Origin: Desulfuromonas sp.
Lineage (GTDB): Bacteria > Desulfobacterota > Desulfuromonadia > Desulfuromonadales > BM501
Direction: 5' to 3'
DNA length: 64,000 nucleotides
Assembly (NCBI RefSeq): GCF_002868845.1
Contig: NZ_PKUB01000056.1
Location: 363-64,362 of the forward strand
The stretch's first letter is position 1. Each line of letters opens with the position of its first letter. The notes under the pieces were generated by a model. The model was not told where the DNA came from, made no database searches, and worked only from the letters and a program-made list of their open reading frames with translations. Positions 39,507 to 48,606 of this stretch are shown piece after piece. The position numbers were made by a program, and so were the translations under genes.

Positions 39507-41357
39507 CTAGGGGCGCTCGAAGCTGTGGCAGAAACCGCAGCCGATGCCGGAACCCTTTTGCAGGTGGCCGTGCATCCGGTCCTGGGTGCGGGGCAGTTTC
39601 TTGTCGCTGTGGCACTGGTTGCAGACTTGCGCTTTCGGGCCCTTCAACTTGTAGCCGAGCAGGTCGAGCTTGTTGTCGCTACCTACGCTGAAGTCGCTGT
39701 GGCACTGGGCGCAGTCGATTGTAGCCGCCTGGGGGATGCCGTGGTTGAGCAGGGCGTAGGTCTCGGTGGTGATCAACTCATAGGGCTCGTTAGCGGGATA
39801 GCCCATGTTGACCAGGCCGGACTGAACAGCGGTGTCAAGATCGCCGGTCACCTTGAGGAAGTCGAAGGTGTCGACGGAAATGATCACATCGTCAGCGACG
39901 GTTTTCGGCTGGTAAGCGGTCTTGTACTTGAAGGGGTACAACTTGCCGTCGTTGATGTCGCCGTTCGGACGGGAGGTAGGATAGGTGCCGGTCACAGGGT
40001 CGAGAACAGCAGTTTCGTAGAGCAGCGCGTTGTGGCTGGTCCGGTTCCAGAATTTGAGGACCGGAGTCAGGTTGGCAGCCATCTCAGAATAGGGATGCCC
40101 AGGGCCGGAGACGCCGTCAGCCGGCTCACCGTCATGGTGGAATTCCCAGTCCCGGTGGATTTCGGTGGGCACCTTTCCGTATTCGTCGATATGGCAGGCT
40201 TGGCAGGCGACTCGAGCGATATGACGGTCGGCATCGGTGCGGTTCAGGCCAGCGTCGGTGTGGCCGGTCCCACTATCCATGCCAGCGTGGCAGCTGGTGC
40301 ATTGAACTTCAGCAGCATGATCGGTGGCACGCAGGTCGGACCCTTTGCCGGTGACCTTGTGGTTGATGAAGGCGTGGCAGTCCTGGCAGGCCACGTTGGC
40401 GCCGCCCATGTTCATGTGGACATCAAAGTCGGGATCGGTGTTGGTGATGTCAGACATGGAGATGTCGCCACGCTTGATGCCGTCGCCACCGCCAGCATTG
40501 GCATGGCACTTCAAGCAGTTTTGGCGGGTCGGTGCAGCAATGTTCTGCAGGTAGCCGTTGAGAACCGCCGTATCAGTACTGGAGGGGCCCATGCTGCCGT
40601 CGGGCAGACGGACGCGAGCCATGGCATAGTCAGCATTATGGCACATCAGACAATCGATGTTGCTGTTGTCGGCCTGGGCATCATCGGGGCGCAGGCCGCG
40701 GCCGACGTGACAGGAACCGCAGACCGGCCAGTCGCCGAGGATGTTGATGCAGTAGCTGTTCAAGGCGTTGGTCAATTTGCCTTGCTGGGTGCCGGGCTGG
40801 TTGGTCATGTCGGGAGCATCGCCGACCCAGGTGTAGTGCAGGGCGTCGGCCATTTCATTGAACTGGGTGTTGTGGCAGGCCATGCAGTTGTTCGGATAGT
40901 CCTGATAGAGGAGACCGGAGTGCGGGCTGCTGCAGGCAGGGTCGCCGGAGCAGTCGCTGTCGGCGCAGTCGACGGCGTCGTCGCAGTCGTTGTCGACACC
41001 ATCGGTGCAGTTTTCGGGGATCGGGTTGCAGGTGCTGCAGGCCGGGTCGGCAGTGCAGTTGCTGTCGGCGCAGTCGATAGCGTCATCACAGTCGTCGTCG
41101 ATACCGTTGTCACAGATCTCGGAAACCGGGGTGCAACCGCCGCATCCTTCGTCAATCACGTCATCGCAGTTGTTGTCAACGCCGTCACAGATTTCTGTGG
41201 CACCGGGGTTGATCGTGGCATCTCTGTCGTCGCAATCGACGGTTGAAAGATAGCCATCTCCATCACGGTCACTTGCAGGTTTTCCCGCAAAGACCGTGGC
41301 GCTGCTGAATGTCAGCAGCAGAAATAGAACGCTGATGGTTGCTAGGACCTTCTTCAT
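39507..41357 (-). CDS. Secreted ten-haem cytochrome c with MopE-like repeats, truncated by an amber codon
   Basis: As read, 616 aa: signal peptide (1-24, ending VFAGKP), one full MopE-like metal-binding repeat (about 28-72, DRDGDGY then DCDDRD, INPGATEICDGVDNNCDD) and two partial ones, then a cytochrome domain with ten CxxCH motifs (CMACH, CGSCH, CLMCH, CLKCH, CQDCH, CTSCH, CQACH, CAQCH, CNQCH, CGFCH). The domain is closely similar to the next gene. An extracellular or periplasmic electron-transfer role is inferred from haem number and secretion. The TAG replaces the glutamate of RPERG in the plus-strand paralogue, one base from GAG; the lost tail holds no haem motif, so the truncated protein could still work. 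Confidence 0.85.
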   Translation of the reverse strand: MKKVLATISVLFLLLTFSSATVFAGKPASDRDGDGYLSTVDCDDRDATINPGATEICDGVDNNCDDVIDEGCGGCTPVSEICDNGIDDDCDDAIDCADSNCTADPACSTCNPIPENCTDGVDNDCDDAVDCADSDCSGDPACSSPHSGLLYQDYPNNCMACHNTQFNEMADALHYTWVGDAPDMTNQPGTQQGKLTNALNSYCINILGDWPVCGSCHVGRGLRPDDAQADNSNIDCLMCHNADYAMARVRLPDGSMGPSSTDTAVLNGYLQNIAAPTRQNCLKCHANAGGGDGIKRGDISMSDITNTDPDFDVHMNMGGANVACQDCHAFINHKVTGKGSDLRATDHAAEVQCTSCHAGMDSGTGHTDAGLNRTDADRHIARVACQACHIDEYGKVPTEIHRDWEFHHDGEPADGVSGPGHPYSEMAANLTPVLKFWNRTSHNALLYETAVLDPVTGTYPTSRPNGDINDGKLYPFKYKTAYQPKTVADDVIISVDTFDFLKVTGDLDTAVQSGLVNMGYPANEPYELITTETYALLNHGIPQAATIDCAQCHSDFSVGSDNKLDLLGYKLKGPKAQVCNQCHSDKKLPRTQDRMHGHLQKGSGIGCGFCHSFERP

Positions 41358-41429
41358 GGTGTTCTCTCCCTCGTCTCTAGATTGGATTGGTCAAATACGA
41401 AAAGCGGCCGGCGGGTGATTTCCCCCAGT

Positions 41430-41442
41430 CACCTCCTTTCTC
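41430..41442 (-). promoter_or_regulatory. Extended Shine-Dalgarno-like leader element, cytochrome gene 1
   Basis: The mRNA strand reads AGAAAGGAGGTGA, 13 bases fully complementary to the 16S rRNA 3' tail, but 73 bases upstream of the start codon and without a start codon at usable distance. The normal RBS of the gene is separate (GAGGGAG before the ATG at 41357). Confidence 0.6.
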
Positions 41443-41475
41443 GCCGCGCAAAATGTAAGACGGGGATAATTGGGC

Positions 41476-41491
41476 TGCAACAATGGTGCCT
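41476..41491 (-). promoter_or_regulatory. Sigma-54-type -24/-12 promoter, cytochrome gene 1
   Basis: Minus strand AGGCACCATTGTTGCA: GG, exactly 10 bases, GC, with GGCAC and TTGCA matching the consensus TGGCAC-N5-TTGC at all but the first base. About 120 bases upstream of the start codon. Confidence 0.7.
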
Positions 41492-41529
41492 GCATTAAAA
41501 TTGTCTATCCGAGTGAACGATTCCGGGAA

Positions 41530-41587
41530 TTAAGCAAGTTGTAATTTATATGATTAGTGCGATGGGTTTAACGGTTTGGGGGAAATG
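41530..41587 (-). promoter_or_regulatory. Conserved upstream block, cytochrome gene 1 (possible activator site)
   Basis: Words CATTTCCCCC, GTTAAA, ACTAAT and ACAAC on the minus strand recur in the same order upstream of the second cytochrome gene. In both genes the block begins about 39 bases upstream of the -24 element and extends to about -95 from it, where enhancer-binding proteins usually bind. Confidence 0.5.
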
Positions 41588-41660
41588 GCTCAGGATGCGG
41601 TGGGTGATATGCCCCAGGGTGGCGCTTGGGTTTATGGGTGGGATGGAGGAAAAAGTGTCA

Positions 41661-41694
41661 AAAAAAGAGGGATGCCCTGGCGGACATCCCTCTT
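41661..41694 (-). terminator. Terminator of the second ten-haem cytochrome gene
   Basis: Minus strand AGAGGGATG-tccgccaggg-CATCCCTCT followed by seven Ts. Confidence 0.9.
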
Positions 41695-41729
41695 CGATTT
41701 CATTCAACCGTTACGGTCGATGGTGATGC

Positions 41730-43874
41730 TTAGTTGCACTCGGGGTGCGCGAACGGAATGTTGTCAACAAAATCGCTGGCGTTCGCATCGCAGGGGCCGA
41801 TGCCGCCGCGCTCGGACTGGCGGGTGAAGCTGTGGCAGAAGAGGCAGTCCATGCCGGCGCCTTTGTTGATGTGGTTGTGCATCTGGAAGTGGTCACGCTT
41901 CAGGTTCTTCTCGGCGTGGCACTGGGAGCAGATGTCCGCCTTGGCGCCCTTGAGTTTGTAACCGAGCAGGTCGAGCTCGTTGTCGGTGTCGATGCCCCAG
42001 TTGGTGTGGCACTGGGCGCAGTCGACGTTGGCCGCGGGACCCATGCCGTGGTTGAGGAGCTGGTAGGTGTCGGTGGTGACCCACTCGTAAGGCTCGCTGG
42101 CCGGGAAGCCCGAGTTGACCAGGCCCGACTCGATGGCCTCGACCACGTCGCCGGTCTGGCCGATGTAGACCAGGGTGTCGAGGGCGAGCAGTTCGCCGGT
42201 AGCGGTGATCATCGGCTGGTCGGCGGTCTTGTACTTGAAGGGGTAGAGCTTGCCGTCGTCCATGCTTCCGAGGGGGCGGGAGGTCGGGTAGAAGCCGGTG
42301 GCCGGATCGATGACGGCGGTGTCGCCGAGCAGGTAGTTGTCGCTGGTGCGGTTCCAGAACTTGTAGACCGGGGTCAGGTTGGCATCGGTGTAGACGTGGG
42401 GGTGGCCGGGGCCGGAAACGCCGTCGGCCGGGCTGCAGTCGTGGTGGAAGCGCCAGTCGCGGTGGGTCTCGGTGGCGACCTTGGCGTACTCTTCGACGTG
42501 GCAGGCCTGGCAGGCGACGTGGGGCACGTGGCTGTCGGCGTCGACGCGGTTGGCGCCGGCGTCGGTGTGACCGGTGCCGCTGTCCATGCCGATGTGGCAG
42601 GTGATGCACTGGACGTCGCTGCCGCGGGCGGTGTCATCGGTGGGGCGCAGGTCGGAGCCGCGGCCGATGGTCTTGTGGTTCTGGAAGACGTGGCAGGCCT
42701 GGCACTGCAGGTCGCCTTCGACCGGGTCGCCGTTGACGTTCATGTGGACGTCGAAGTTGGCGCTGGAGTTAGAGATGGTCGCCATGGAGAGGTCGCCACG
42801 CTTGACCGCGTCGCCGCCGCCGGCGTTGGCGTGGCACTTGAGGCAGTTGGCGCGGGTCGGGGGGGCGATGTTCTGCACGTAGCCGTCGAGAACCGCCTGG
42901 GCGGTGCCGGTCGGGGGACCCATGGTGCCGTCGGCGAGGCGGGTGCGGGTCATGGCGTAGTCGGCGTTGTGGCAGGCCAGGCAGTCGATGTTGCTGTTGT
43001 CGGCGGCGGGATCGTCGGGACGCAGGCCGCGGCCGGCGTGGCACTTGCCGCAGATCTTCCAGTCGCCGAGGATGTTGATGCAGTAGCTGTTGACGGCGTT
43101 GGTCAGCTTGCCCTGCTGAGTGCCGTTCTGGTTGGCCATCTCGGTGGTGTCGCCGACCCACTTGTAATGGGTGGAGTTGGCCATCTCGTTGTACTGGGTG
43201 CCGTGGCAGCCGAGGCAGGCGGTGGGGTAGTCGGCCCAGGTCAGGCTGGAATGGTTGTCGCCGCAGGGCAGGTCGGCGCCGCTGCAGTCCTGGTCGATGC
43301 CGTCGCCGCAGATCTCGGTGGCGCCGGGGTTGATCGCCGGGTCGGTGTCGTCGCAGTCGACGGTGGTGTCGTAGCCGTCGCCGTCTGCGTCGACCGGGCC
43401 GGCCAGATCCTGGCAGGAGCCGTTTTTCTTGGTGCCGATCCACTCGCAGGCCGGATCGTTATTGCACTCGTTCATGCTGGTGATGTCGGCGCAGATCGAG
43501 CCGCCGCAGGGCAGGTCGGCGCCGCTGCAGTCCTGGTCGATGCCGTCGCCGCAGATCTCGGTTGCGCCGGGATTGATCGCCGGGTCGGTGTCGTCGCAGT
43601 CGACGGTGCTGTCGTAGCCGTCGCCGTCCACATCGACCGGGGGCTCGCCGCAGGTCGGGTCGGCGCCGTCGATGAAGCCGTCGCAGTTGTTGTCGATGCT
43701 GTCGTCGCAGATTTCAGGAGCGCCGGGGTTGATGGCGGGATCGCTGTCGTTGCAGTCGACGTTGTTTTTGTAGCCGTCGCCGTCGTTGTCGACGGGCTTT
43801 CCGGCGAGGGCGCCGGTGGTGCTGAGGGCCAGGGCCAGCAGCAGAACGCTCAGGATAGCAAATACCTTCTTCAT
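41730..43874 (-). CDS. Secreted ten-haem cytochrome c with three MopE-like repeats
   Basis: A 714-aa protein from the ATG at 43874 (an ATG six bases upstream is too close to the GAGAGAGG ribosome site). Signal peptide ends near residue 25 (GALAGKP). Three MopE-like repeats follow (about 28-70, 76-120, 160-205; DNDGDGY, DCNDSD, INPGAPEICDDSIDNNCDG and copies), with an extra cysteine-rich insert between the second and third. Ten CxxCH haem sites come next. Such repeats bind copper in MopE of Methylococcus and calcium in other proteins. Paralogue of both neighbours; the C-terminus ECN is intact. Probably an outer-surface or periplasmic conduit for respiratory electrons. Confidence 0.9.
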   Translation of the reverse strand: MKKVFAILSVLLLALALSTTGALAGKPVDNDGDGYKNNVDCNDSDPAINPGAPEICDDSIDNNCDGFIDGADPTCGEPPVDVDGDGYDSTVDCDDTDPAINPGATEICGDGIDQDCSGADLPCGGSICADITSMNECNNDPACEWIGTKKNGSCQDLAGPVDADGDGYDTTVDCDDTDPAINPGATEICGDGIDQDCSGADLPCGDNHSSLTWADYPTACLGCHGTQYNEMANSTHYKWVGDTTEMANQNGTQQGKLTNAVNSYCINILGDWKICGKCHAGRGLRPDDPAADNSNIDCLACHNADYAMTRTRLADGTMGPPTGTAQAVLDGYVQNIAPPTRANCLKCHANAGGGDAVKRGDLSMATISNSSANFDVHMNVNGDPVEGDLQCQACHVFQNHKTIGRGSDLRPTDDTARGSDVQCITCHIGMDSGTGHTDAGANRVDADSHVPHVACQACHVEEYAKVATETHRDWRFHHDCSPADGVSGPGHPHVYTDANLTPVYKFWNRTSDNYLLGDTAVIDPATGFYPTSRPLGSMDDGKLYPFKYKTADQPMITATGELLALDTLVYIGQTGDVVEAIESGLVNSGFPASEPYEWVTTDTYQLLNHGMGPAANVDCAQCHTNWGIDTDNELDLLGYKLKGAKADICSQCHAEKNLKRDHFQMHNHINKGAGMDCLFCHSFTRQSERGGIGPCDANASDFVDNIPFAHPECN

Positions 43875-43982
43875 GTTCATCCTCTCTCTTTGGTTTGGGC
43901 TTGCGGAAAAGACCCCTCTCGGCGGCTGCCCCCCTGGCCTTCTCCATGATTACGAAAACGGTTGCCTGTTGCCTTTTCCGGG

Positions 43983-43993
43983 TCACCTCCTTT
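43983..43993 (-). promoter_or_regulatory. Extended Shine-Dalgarno-like leader element, cytochrome gene 2
   Basis: mRNA strand AAAGGAGGTGA, 109 bases upstream of the start codon, in a segment (GCCCGACAAAGGAGG) resembling the leader of gene 1. Confidence 0.6.
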
Positions 43994-44037
43994 GTCGGGC
44001 AATTTAACCCCTTGTCGTGCGGAATATTGACACAGTT

Positions 44038-44053
44038 TGCAACAACAATGCCG
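44038..44053 (-). promoter_or_regulatory. Sigma-54-type -24/-12 promoter, cytochrome gene 2
   Basis: Minus strand CGGCATTGTTGTTGCA: GG, exactly 10 bases, GC; the TTGTTGCA half is identical to that of gene 1. Confidence 0.65.
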
Positions 44054-44091
44054 CAAACTGAATGGAAAAAGTAGGTTAATGTTTACGCTGT

Positions 44092-44149
44092 TTAAGCGGG
44101 TTGTTGAATATATTAGTTTTGTGAATTTAACTTAAAATTGGGGGAAATG
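44092..44149 (-). promoter_or_regulatory. Conserved upstream block, cytochrome gene 2 (possible activator site)
   Basis: Same words and order as the block at 41530-41587 (GGGGGAAATG, TTTAAC, ATTAGT and GTTGT on the plus strand), at the same distance from the -24 element. Confidence 0.5.
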
Positions 44150-45133
44150 ATCGGGTATCTGGGGGAGATGCCGCAATTTGTTGTGGCAGTCCAGTAGAGT
44201 AGAGAAGGTCAATTATTAATTATTCATCTATTCGATTGCTCGGTGAAGCAACCGCGAGGAATATGGACGGACACGAAGGTTCGTTTCAGGTCATGGGTGA
44301 CTTGCACTCAGGGGGAAAGGGGCAATGGGCGACAAGATCACCGTTTTATGGCCCGAAGGGGCTGATGCCCTCGCGGTCGAATTCACGGATGAAGTCGTGG
44401 CCATGCCTTGGCCCTTTCTCAACAGGGCTGAGGATCTGGAAGCGGTACGCGCCTTGGGCACTTTTCGCGGTGGCGTTGAGTGCAGGAGCCCGGCCTGGAC
44501 CTCGTGTGCCGGTGCCCGAGCGCGGAGGGGCCACTGATCGTTTCATTGTCCATCTACGCCTTGACGCGGCGCTCCTCGCCAGGAGCGGAAAGGGACGGTC
44601 GGCTTTGGCTCCGGCGCAGGGCGAACGGGAAGTCAGAAGGAGTCGGTAGCCGGGCTGCTCACGGCAGCCTGAATGGAGAGCTCTCGGGCAATGGAGGACG
44701 CCGTAGGCAGGATTGGGGTAGCGCAGTGAGAGCCCGTTTGGCTGGCCTTGGGGCAATCTTGGCGTCCCCGCCGTCTTGGATTGGTTCGGCAATACCCATA
44801 AATGCCGCAACCGGGGGAGATGGCCCTGTTGCCCGCCATCTTTCCATGACGGCGCAAAAGACCTATCGCTTCGGGGAAAAAGGGGGGCACTTGCCCTCGT
44901 TTGGTGTGAAGAAGAAAGGTCGTGGTGGCAGGGGGGGGAAGAATGGGGGGCGGCCAAGCCTGGGCTTCTCAAAACAATATTCAGTTTCACGTCGGGAATT
45001 GAATGCGGTGTGGATCTCGGAAAAAGACAAGTTGGGAGATAATGAAAGCCACATGAGTGTTGAGCAATATTTTACAATGTTAATGGGGCAATTGGCCCAC
45101 GGTGTGTCTTATGCCCCACCAAGGAGGTCAAGA
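44150..45133. other. Long divergent gap between cytochrome genes 2 and 3
   Basis: About 1 kb with no gene I can support. A 70-codon reading frame at 44325-44537 (starting MGDKITVLWPEGADALAVEF) has a purine-rich stretch upstream and protein-like composition for its first 45 residues, but then degenerates; it could be the stump of a lost gene. The rest shifts from GC-rich to AT-rich and shows no promoter, repeat or RNA that I recognise. Confidence 0.45.
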
Positions 45134-45277
45134 ATGTCTGGTGAGAACACCCCACCAAAGGCATGGGTCAAGATACCTAGCGTAGATAAAGTGAGCTGTG
45201 TTTTCAGTTGCTTGCGAGCGAGTGTTTCGGACCATCCCCGAATTGGCACGATTGGTGGAGTATGGAAAGACGAATAA
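45134..45277 (+). CDS. Candidate small protein upstream of cytochrome gene 3
   Basis: A 47-codon ORF (starting MSGENTPPKAWVKI, ending TIGGVWKDE, two cysteines in the middle) whose ATG is preceded by AAGGAGGT with a 5-base gap, an ideal ribosome site that is hard to explain otherwise. GC content is lower than in neighbouring genes. No family recognised. The following 16 bases lead into the third cytochrome leader, so it could be a leader peptide or an independent small protein. Confidence 0.4.
   Translation: MSGENTPPKAWVKIPSVDKVSCVFSCLRASVSDHPRIGTIGGVWKDE
45244..45259 (+). promoter_or_regulatory. Sigma-54-like element, cytochrome gene 3 (weak)
   Basis: TGGCACGATTGGTGGA has a perfect -24 half, but the -12 half reads GTGGA in place of TTGCA, losing the key GC. 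It lies at the same distance (about 34-48 bases) from the leader element as in genes 1 and 2. It overlaps the small ORF. Confidence 0.25.
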
Positions 45278-45292
45278 TTAATGTTCGCCCTT

Positions 45293-45302
45293 GAAAGGAG
45301 GT
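45293..45302 (+). promoter_or_regulatory. Extended Shine-Dalgarno-like leader element, cytochrome gene 3
   Basis: GAAAGGAGGT, 134 bases upstream of the start codon. A following ATG abuts it with no spacing, so normal initiation there is unlikely. Confidence 0.5.
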
Positions 45303-45436
45303 ATGGAAAGGCAAAGGCGGACGTCACATCATTGGGGGTGGGGAAGATTGGCCGGGCAGGGATCGGAAACCGAGTCGATGTCAGGTGTCGGCCCCACAAA
45401 TCGGACCAAGGAAAACAAGAAAAGGAGAAGATGGAA

Positions 45437-47434
45437 ATGAAGAAGGTTTTCGTGTTCCTCAGCATAATCTGTCTGGTATTTGCCTTTACCAGCACCTCTG
45501 CTTTTGCAGGCAAGCCCGTCGACAACGACGGCGACGGCTACAAGTCCAACGTCGACTGCAACGACAACGACCCCGCCATCAACCCCGGCGCAGCCGAAAT
45601 CTGCACCGACGGCATCGATAACAACTGCGACGGATTCACCGACGGGGCCGACCCGACCTGCGGCGGCGGCCCTGTCGACGCCGACGGCGACGGCTACGAC
45701 GACACTGTCGACTGCGACGACAGCGACCCCGCCGTGAATCCCGGTGCAACCGAGATCTGCAACGGCATCGATGACAACTGCGACAGCGTGGTGGACGAAG
45801 GCTGCGGTGGCGGCGGCACCCATGACGGCATCACCGGGACCTTCGACACCCCGGCCCAGGTGACCGCCAAGTGTCTCGAGTGTCACTCCCTGGAAGGCTC
45901 CCACATCGCCAACGCTCTGCACGGCCTGAAGCCGATCGCGACCCCGGACGTCGTTAACAACCTGGACGACAGCAACAAGTACCGTGAAATCAACACCTTC
46001 TGCAGCTATCCTGGTCCGGAACAGGCGGGAGCCGCCTGCATGGGCTGCCACCCGACCCTCGGCAAGTACGAGAACCTCGGCGCCGCGGACATCGACTGTC
46101 TGCGCTGCCACAACGACCAGTACAAGCGCAAGTTCACCGCGGAAGACGATCCGGCCAATTTCTACAACGTGGTCGACTGGCAGGGGACCCCGAAGACCTA
46201 CATTCCCTCCAAGAAGGACGCCCAGGGCAACTTCATGGTCGAGTTCAACTGGGGCGCCATGCCCGGCCTGACCGCGACCGACCTGATCGCCGGCGTGCAT
46301 CGCCCGACCACCTCGACCTGCCTCTCCTGCCACGCGAAAGCTGGCGGCGGCGACTGGACCAAGCGTGGTGATATCGGTCTGAACACCGCGACCGCGACGG
46401 CGGCCGAAGACGTCCACCTCGCCTCGGCGGCAAGCGGCGGCGCGGGGCTCTCCTGCTCCGACTGCCACGTCTCCTCCAATCACAAGATCCCCGGCCGCGG
46501 CATCGACCTGCGCCCGACGGAACAAGGTGTCGCCGTCAAGGCCTGCGTCGAGTGCCATACCGGCTTTGAAACCGGCAACGGTCACGCCGCCGCCGGCGCC
46601 AACCGCAGCGAAGGCGACCGCCACGTCTACCGCGTTGCCTGCCAGTCCTGCCACATCGCCGAGTTCGCCAAGGGCGGCGCCACCGAAATGCACCGCGACT
46701 GGACCAGCCCGCACTGGAACCAGGCCCTGTGCAACGGCCAGGGCGCCTGGGCCGGCCACGAGGTCAAGGAAGCCAACGTGGCTCCCGATCACGTCTTCTT
46801 CAACGGCACCTCTTACATCGCCAACCTCGGCGAAACCGTTGACCAGGTCGACCCGGCCAGCGGCTACCTCACCGTGGCGGACGCCAACGGCGACCTGAAC
46901 GACGGCATGCTGGTGCCGATCAAGCGTCATCAGTCGAACATGGCCGTGATGGACAACACCGGCGAGCTGGTCCCCTACGACATCGTCTGGCAGTTCATGA
47001 CCGGCAAGAATGACGAAGCGGCCGAGCGCGGCAAAGCCAACGCCGGCCTGAACGGCACCCACAGCTGGCAGTGGGTGGAAGCCGAGATGGCGATCAACCA
47101 CGGTGTCGCCCCGGCCACCGACGTAGCTGACTGCTCCGCATGTCACGGCAGCGGTTCTATTGACCTGGGTTCCACCTCCAAGCTGGACGCCATGGGCTAT
47201 GCTCTCAAGGACACCAAGGCTCTGATCTGCTCGCAGTGCCACGCCGAGAAGAAGCTCCCGAGAACCTGGGACCGGATGCACAACCACATCAACAAGACCG
47301 CCGGCGGCTCCGCCGGGATCGACTGCCTGTTCTGCCACGACTTCACGCGTCCCGAGCGTGGGCTGACCACTCCGTGCGACCCTGAAGCCTCCAACTACGT
47401 GGATACCAATCCTTACCCGCATCAGTGCAACTAG
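45437..47434 (+). CDS. Secreted ten-haem cytochrome c with two MopE-like repeats
   Basis: A 665-aa protein from the ATG at 45437, nine bases after GGAG; an ATG at 45431 is too close to it. Signal peptide 1-23 (SAFAGKP), two full MopE-like repeats (about 26-68 and 74-116), then ten CxxCH sites (CLECH, CMGCH, CLRCH, CLSCH, CSDCH, CVECH, CQSCH, CSACH, CSQCH, CLFCH). It shares the tail RPERG...CN and the haem spacing of the two minus-strand paralogues but is clearly more divergent. Transcribed alone, in the opposite direction. Secreted electron-transfer function is inference. Confidence 0.9.
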   Translation: MKKVFVFLSIICLVFAFTSTSAFAGKPVDNDGDGYKSNVDCNDNDPAINPGAAEICTDGIDNNCDGFTDGADPTCGGGPVDADGDGYDDTVDCDDSDPAVNPGATEICNGIDDNCDSVVDEGCGGGGTHDGITGTFDTPAQVTAKCLECHSLEGSHIANALHGLKPIATPDVVNNLDDSNKYREINTFCSYPGPEQAGAACMGCHPTLGKYENLGAADIDCLRCHNDQYKRKFTAEDDPANFYNVVDWQGTPKTYIPSKKDAQGNFMVEFNWGAMPGLTATDLIAGVHRPTTSTCLSCHAKAGGGDWTKRGDIGLNTATATAAEDVHLASAASGGAGLSCSDCHVSSNHKIPGRGIDLRPTEQGVAVKACVECHTGFETGNGHAAAGANRSEGDRHVYRVACQSCHIAEFAKGGATEMHRDWTSPHWNQALCNGQGAWAGHEVKEANVAPDHVFFNGTSYIANLGETVDQVDPASGYLTVADANGDLNDGMLVPIKRHQSNMAVMDNTGELVPYDIVWQFMTGKNDEAAERGKANAGLNGTHSWQWVEAEMAINHGVAPATDVADCSACHGSGSIDLGSTSKLDAMGYALKDTKALICSQCHAEKKLPRTWDRMHNHINKTAGGSAGIDCLFCHDFTRPERGLTTPCDPEASNYVDTNPYPHQCN

Positions 47435-47474
47435 AGATGCACAGCTAAGGAAGGGAACACTTCCTTCCTGATAC

Positions 47475-47512
47475 AAAAAAGCCTGGGGGAGAGTTCCCCC
47501 AGGCTTTTTTTC
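47475..47512 (+). terminator. Terminator of the third cytochrome gene
   Basis: AAAAAAGCCTGGGGGA-gag-TTCCCCCAGGCTTTTTTT, 40 bases after the stop. Confidence 0.95.
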
Positions 47513-47589
47513 GTTGTGCGCCAGGAATGGCGCGTGGCGCGCAAGCGCCAGCTGGTTGGACGTAATGGGAACAAGGTAGGCTGAAGCAC

Positions 47590-47681
47590 AAAAAGTGAGA
47601 CGCGCTGCATCTCCCCACAGAGTCAGCGCGTCTCAGGTCTTGAACGAAAAGGAGAGGTAGCTTTTTACTACCGTTCGTTCA
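47590..47681 (-). ncRNA. Candidate small RNA (about 92 nt) with its own promoter and terminator
   Basis: On the minus strand, a start near 47681 would give an RNA with two domains. The first stem pairs TTGAACGAA with TTCGTTCAA (47640-47648 with 47674-47682) and encloses a smaller GGTAG/CTACC hairpin and a pyrimidine-rich CTCTCCTTTT. The second is a perfect 12-bp hairpin (TGAGACGCGCTG, 47596-47607 with 47624-47635) followed by CTTTTTG, a textbook terminator. A near-consensus promoter lies directly upstream. I recognise no Rfam family (not 6S, SRP, tmRNA or RNase P). No protein is encoded here on either strand. Confidence 0.7.
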
Positions 47682-47686
47682 AGGAA

Positions 47687-47715
47687 AGTATACTTCCCTG
47701 GCGGGCCTCAGTCAA
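47687..47715 (-). promoter_or_regulatory. Sigma-70 promoter of the candidate sRNA
   Basis: Minus strand TTGACT (47710-47715), 17 bases, TATACT (47687-47692). Transcription would begin 6-7 bases further on, at the base of the first stem. Confidence 0.75.
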
Positions 47716-48016
47716 GCAATTCTTTACCAAAAGGCTTAACTTAAGCCCGGGGCAGGGGGGCATTAAGTTGACTGGTGTTTCCTGGAGGTCGTGAAGGGTT
47801 TCCGCACCAGTGGGGGCACAGGTACAAGGACTCCAGATTTTTGCCGAATGAAGAAGAAAAAAATCCTATTAATGCCCTGGAGAATTGCTGGCGGGGTATC
47901 GGGGAAATGTTTGGCACGGCTCGTTTCGGTGGTAGATGACCACTTAGGGGAAGAAAAAAGCCCCTGATTGAGTCTCTGGCCCGAGGAACGGTTTTAAGGG
48001 TTTCCCGGCGATGGCC
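47716..48016. other. Non-coding stretch upstream of tpx
   Basis: About 300 bases with no supported feature. A 39-codon frame from 47848 (MKKKKILLMPWRIAGG) lacks a ribosome site. Confidence 0.5.
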
Positions 48017-48044
48017 TTGACAGGGGGTAATACGCGGCTAGAAT
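48017..48044 (+). promoter_or_regulatory. Sigma-70 promoter of tpx
   Basis: TTGACA (48017-48022), 16 bases, TAGAAT (48039-48044), 43 bases before the start codon. Confidence 0.75.
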
Positions 48045-48087
48045 TAGAACCGTTTCGATTGCTTATTTATAGGGAGGACAAGAATTC

Positions 48088-48606
48088 ATGGTACAGGAAA
48101 GAACCGACGTGATTACCTTCAAAGGCAACCCCATGACCCTGCTCGGCCCCGACGTCGCGGTCGGTTCCCCGGCTCCCGATTTTCGGGTCGTGGACAACGC
48201 ACTGCAGCCCGTGACCCTGACCGACTCGACGGGGAAGGTGCGGATCATCACCGTCGTCCCCTCCCTCGACACCCCGGTGTGCGACACCATGACCCGCAGG
48301 TTCAACGAGGACGCGGCCAAGCTGCCCGAAGACGTGGTCGTCTACACCGTCAGCCTCGACCTGCCCTTCGCCCAGAAGCGCTGGTGCGGAAACGCCGGCA
48401 TCGAAAAGGTCGTGACCCTCTCCGACTACCAGGACCGCTCCTTCGGGCTGAACTGGGGGATGCTCATCAAGGAGCTGAAGCTCCTGGCGCGCGCCGTCTT
48501 CGTCGTCGACCGCTCCGGCAAGGTCGCCTACCGGGATGTCGTGTCCGAGGTCACGGCCGAGCCTGACTACAATGCTGCCCTGGAGGCGGCCCGCAAGCTT
48601 CTCTGA
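48088..48606 (+). CDS. tpx: Thiol peroxidase (Tpx-type peroxiredoxin)
   Basis: A 172-aa atypical two-cysteine peroxiredoxin reducing lipid and other hydroperoxides at the expense of thioredoxin. Peroxidatic Cys65 is in SLDTPVCDTMTRRF and resolving Cys100 in KRWCG, the Tpx arrangement. The conserved N-terminal FKGNPMTLLG and GSPAPDF are present. RBS GGGAGGA. Monocistronic, with promoter and terminator; a role in oxygen tolerance of an anaerobe fits the neighbouring bat operon and oxidase. Confidence 0.97.
   Translation: MVQERTDVITFKGNPMTLLGPDVAVGSPAPDFRVVDNALQPVTLTDSTGKVRIITVVPSLDTPVCDTMTRRFNEDAAKLPEDVVVYTVSLDLPFAQKRWCGNAGIEKVVTLSDYQDRSFGLNWGMLIKELKLLARAVFVVDRSGKVAYRDVVSEVTAEPDYNAALEAARKLL

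Follow-up and report, generated by a model that had tools for sequence, protein, structure and literature searches.

Between the last of three decahaem cytochrome genes and tpx lies a gap in which an original prediction placed an unannotated small RNA (sRNA) gene, convergent to the cytochrome gene; the question is whether such a gene is there and, if so, how its RNA might act. The window, by which we mean the whole 64-kb stretch of DNA that was analysed, lies on contig C56 of a 3.7 Mb genome assembly (56 contigs, 99.8% completeness), and this genome is the sole representative of its own genus and family among the genomes searched. Along the window the three cytochrome genes are followed by the sRNA gap and then by tpx, as follows.

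39507–41357, minus strand: MopE-repeat decahaem cytochrome gene 1
41730–43880, minus strand: MopE-repeat decahaem cytochrome gene 2
45437–47434, plus strand: MopE-repeat decahaem c-type cytochrome gene 3, convergent to the candidate sRNA
47478–47512, both strands: two-way terminator at the 3′ end of cytochrome gene 3, parting the two convergent transcripts
48088–48606, plus strand: tpx, thiol peroxidase (NF001808 match)

The start of cytochrome gene 3 is the ATG at 45437, picked by its Shine-Dalgarno (SD) sequence, the longest open reading frame (ORF) running from 45281. The three adjacent decahaem cytochromes (39507–47434) carry N-terminal MopE-type metal-binding repeats, and the haem part of the two products tested (41730–43880 and 45281–47434) resembles the octahaem tetrathionate reductase family TIGR04315, below the cut-off. 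On the other side of the gap tpx has its own promoter (48017–48044), and its best relatives come from Desulfuromonadales.

Within the gap we recognise the following elements.

47687–47715, minus strand: sigma-70-type promoter, TTGACT-17-TATACT, with 10 of 12 consensus matches
47682–47699, no strand assigned: imperfect 18-bp palindrome AGGAAAGTATACTTCCCT over the −10 box (8 of 9 pairs), a possible operator
47592–47681, minus strand: predicted small RNA of about 90 nt (fold z −6.2), without an ORF of at least 60 aa and without an Rfam match
47639–47683, minus strand: hairpin 1, a 10-bp stem with an inner hairpin and the 7-nt bulge UCUCCUU (z −4.2 by itself)
47647–47656, minus strand: CUCUCCUUUU, proposed anti-SD seed for putative SD pairing, of which UCUCCUU (47655–47649) is unpaired
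47590–47635, minus strand: intrinsic terminator, a perfect 12-bp stem (47596–47635) followed by CUUUUU (hairpin alone z −5.7)

Folding of the 90-nt RNA gives −40.8 kcal/mol, compared with −22.5 ± 2.9 kcal/mol for shuffled sequences. The stem of hairpin 1 (CTTGAACGAA/TTCGTTCAAG, 10 bp) has its foot at the expected transcription start and encloses an inner hairpin of 5–6 bp (GGUAGUAAAAAGCUACC, read on the minus strand as GGTAGTAAAAAGCTACC). In the predicted nested fold the UCUCCUU bulge is unpaired with a probability of about 1.0, and apart from this bulge and the A5 loop hairpin 1 is paired at nearly all of its bases. The terminator stem, TGAGACGCGCTG/CAGCGCGTCTCA, is a perfect 12 bp with CTTTTT directly after it; the RNA tail CUUUUUGUG has five U only, which makes it a weak tail, and the two-way terminator of the cytochrome, situated approximately 80 nt further on, could act as a back-up. 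The plus strand of the same segment also folds well (z −5.2), because any inverted repeat must fold on both strands; only the minus strand has a promoter before the structure and a T run after it. As no ORF of at least 60 aa is present in 47477–48062, the locus has the three marks of a stand-alone sRNA gene, namely its own promoter, no ORF and its own Rho-independent terminator. The individual features of the original prediction were thus all recovered: the promoter, a start at the foot of a 9–10-bp stem, the perfect terminator hairpin with its CTTTTT, the lack of coding capacity, and the arrangement of promoter, stem and terminator in the right order and spacing on the minus strand. Sigma-70 RNA polymerase would initiate near 47681 on this strand, where we place the RNA 5′ end, and transcription would stop at the 12-bp terminator.

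The joint promoter and terminator signal is rare. In a first scan of both strands of the 64 kb, the sRNA locus was the sole promoter plus terminator unit, and at the threshold of that scan only one of 1500 dinucleotide shuffles of the gap yielded such a unit. A second scan with other settings, covering 755 kb of the same genome, returned five units, of which three lie outside called genes; here the sRNA promoter was joined to the two-way terminator at 47478–47512, so that the RNA may also be made in a longer, read-through form of about 200 nt. Two further intergenic units of a promoter and a strong terminator are found in the same genome, at L157 15220–15445 (minus strand) and L161 13650–13788 (plus strand), and these may be sRNA genes or short leaders.

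Searches for relatives and known families were consistently negative. No Rfam family reached its gathering threshold anywhere in the window, and when matches with E up to 10 were admitted the low-scoring ones all fell outside 47590–47715, in line with the original prediction, in which no known family was recognised. When 277 genomes of the class were searched at the DNA level, the window itself alone was recovered, and a covariance model built from the single sequence with its two hairpins recovered from the same genomes the window together with matches at the level of chance. Of the latter, a weak match in the source genome itself (L118) is a hairpin rich in repeats that does not share the sequence, and another in the class genomes (L210) is apparently coding. 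Among 136 genomes of the order the DNA search gave weak, short matches (L090–L095), mostly in coding sequence and none with the fold of the query. Searches with blastn and nhmmer over 80 tpx loci likewise gave short chance matches only, the best of which (L027) sits in a reading frame that, judged by eye, resembles a Nudix hydrolase, and no counterpart of the sRNA was present in the surroundings of tpx at about 35 loci of the order. In G135, which has a cytochrome 77% identical to that considered here, the downstream gap is unrelated and no tpx was found in the 1.5 kb beyond.

With no homologue in the 277 class genomes, the sRNA gene has no evolutionary support; the genomes searched, however, include no other member of its genus or family, so the lack of relatives neither proves nor refutes it. 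This leaves two readings: a young gene, or one with relatives that have diverged too far or have not been sampled. The central claim, an unannotated sRNA convergent to the cytochrome, is upheld as the best explanation of the sequence; the conservation looked for in relatives was not seen.

The same results bear on what else the segment could be. The complete lack of relatives speaks for a spurious or decayed unit without selected function, such as a remnant or a transcription barrier guarding the 3′ end of the cytochrome gene; against this, the joint promoter and terminator signal is rare, both hairpins are intact with perfect outer stems, and the two-way terminator already guards the cytochrome, and we consider this explanation unlikely. 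Two inverted repeats side by side might also suggest an element acting at the level of DNA, either a transposon remnant or a member of a repeat family. The locus is present in single copy in its own genome and matched nothing in the phage and plasmid records searched, which argues that it is no repeat element, and the asymmetry of promoter and T run suits the minus strand alone, so that such an origin appears highly improbable. A structured RNA with a terminator at its end could in principle be a riboswitch or attenuator leader, but the next 3.5 kb are taken up by the cytochrome gene, on the other strand, and by its gap, and as there is no minus-strand gene downstream to lead, this explanation can for practical purposes be dismissed. 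An antisense role against the cytochrome was rejected for the short form of the RNA, since the two-way terminator separates the two convergent transcripts. We propose that the locus is probably a real, stand-alone and lineage-specific sRNA gene of about 90 nt, whose transcription we infer from its signals. It has no detectable relative in the genomes searched and is therefore in all likelihood a further lineage-specific sRNA.

How such a gene might be regulated is suggested by the palindrome over its −10 box. Palindromes as good as AGGAAAGTATACTTCCCT number 21 in the 64-kb window, which puts the chance of one covering the −10 box at roughly 0.6%. The palindrome may serve as an operator, yet it defines no regulon: no second copy with fewer than three mismatches is present in the genome, and it was rejected as a regulon operator on that ground.

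As to the mode of action, the complement of the unpaired UCUCCUU, AAGGAGA, is the core of the Shine-Dalgarno sequence, so that the RNA has the unpaired segment complementary to SD sequences that is expected of an anti-SD sRNA. In a plausible scheme the single-stranded bulge would pair in trans with the SD of a few mRNAs and block their translation, perhaps assisted by the Hfq of the source genome, in which hfq is present. Hfq-bound RNAs carry tails rich in U, some seven residues long or longer; the five U of the candidate fall short of this. We advance anti-SD pairing, with its putative seed, tentatively and as the most likely single mechanism, and its targets are a conjecture. Candidates for these would be cytochrome mRNAs, including the neighbouring convergent one.

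Target prediction covered 566 genes, called with a simple home-made gene caller in 755 kb that were partly chosen for cytochromes. The strongest SD pairing among them, formed by the bulge together with its flanks, extends over 11 nt (AAAAGGAGAGG, −22.5 kcal/mol) and falls on the SD in front of a contig C4 reading frame with which a multihaem cytochrome begins. For the convergent cytochrome the pairing is 9 nt long (AAAAGGAGA) and ranks about 21st of the 566 called genes; a small cytochrome encoded on C27 comes close to a match, with CXXCH repeats at the same place. When 24 cytochromes are compared with 541 other genes, the difference in SD pairing is not significant (p 0.21 for energy, 0.06 for match length and 0.48 for the core match), and the target claim is thus a hypothesis; the SDs of cytochromes are marginally stronger in general among the called genes (p 0.054), and any C/U-rich bulge will match SDs. 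A multihaem cytochrome on C4 (about 62.1–65.7 kb; L193 12145–15667, minus strand) appears to be split by a frame change into a first part of 136 aa and a second of 1018 aa, and an N near the junction makes an assembly error likely. A dense cluster of multihaem cytochromes, with Paired_CXXCH_1 matches and up to 20 haem motifs per protein, is situated at G000:C4:68500–84200.

The lack of significant cytochrome enrichment is also a point in favour of a stand-alone sRNA that does not pair with SDs at all and instead binds a protein, serves as a sponge or acts via its terminator loop GUGGGGAGAU. Pairing of the GGGGAGA of this loop with UCUCCUU within one and the same molecule is moreover possible and would hide the seed. 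However, the bulge is predicted to be open in the nested fold, and the single GGA in a loop does not make a CsrB-type sponge; we regard this alternative as possible, if doubtful. Starting again from anti-SD pairing, the fullest form of the idea would be a lineage-specific sRNA, its gene standing tail to tail with one for a multihaem cytochrome, that coordinates the translation of multihaem cytochromes by SD masking in a cytochrome-rich bacterium of the Desulfuromonadales type and is perhaps itself controlled by a redox-sensing repressor bound at the palindromic −10 box. In its entirety this seems very unlikely.

Comparison with known sRNAs helps to place the candidate. Sponges of the CsrB/RsmZ type are defined by many repeated GGA motifs; the candidate shares with them a stem-loop structure and a GGA in a loop, but this GGA, in GUGGGGAGAU, is the only one, where multiple motifs define the class. 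The alphaproteobacterial ar14 sRNAs (RF02344) have C-rich, anti-SD-like loops, and like them the candidate is predicted to end at a Rho-independent terminator and to have pyrimidine-rich stretches, single-stranded and able in principle to bind SDs; the sub-threshold Rfam match in the gap, on the other hand, falls on the cytochrome terminator (47474–47574) and off the candidate RNA. In the C-rich sRNAs of Firmicutes, such as RsaA (PMC3961350) and RoxS (PMC10433868), ribosome binding sites are the pairing partner of an unpaired stretch rich in C, which resembles the mode of action proposed here, although the corresponding segment of the candidate is CUCUCC, without a C run, and no relationship in sequence or structure to either RNA was found. 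Closer in lineage are the sRNAs of Geobacter, which, set beside the candidate by description and not by sequence, differ from it in that it has no homologue among the genomes searched. RNA-seq of G. soli gave 30 differentially expressed intergenic sRNAs (PMC6013743), and the candidate is likewise intergenic, short and from a related cytochrome-rich group; as many intergenic sRNAs of Geobacter are already published, it would be a further orphan of that kind. For now it is one further orphan sRNA candidate beside the many in most bacterial genomes. If it is transcribed and acts on cytochrome mRNAs, it would offer a tractable case of sRNAs controlling extracellular electron transfer genes, as RNA-seq work in Geobacter has suggested (PMC6013743).
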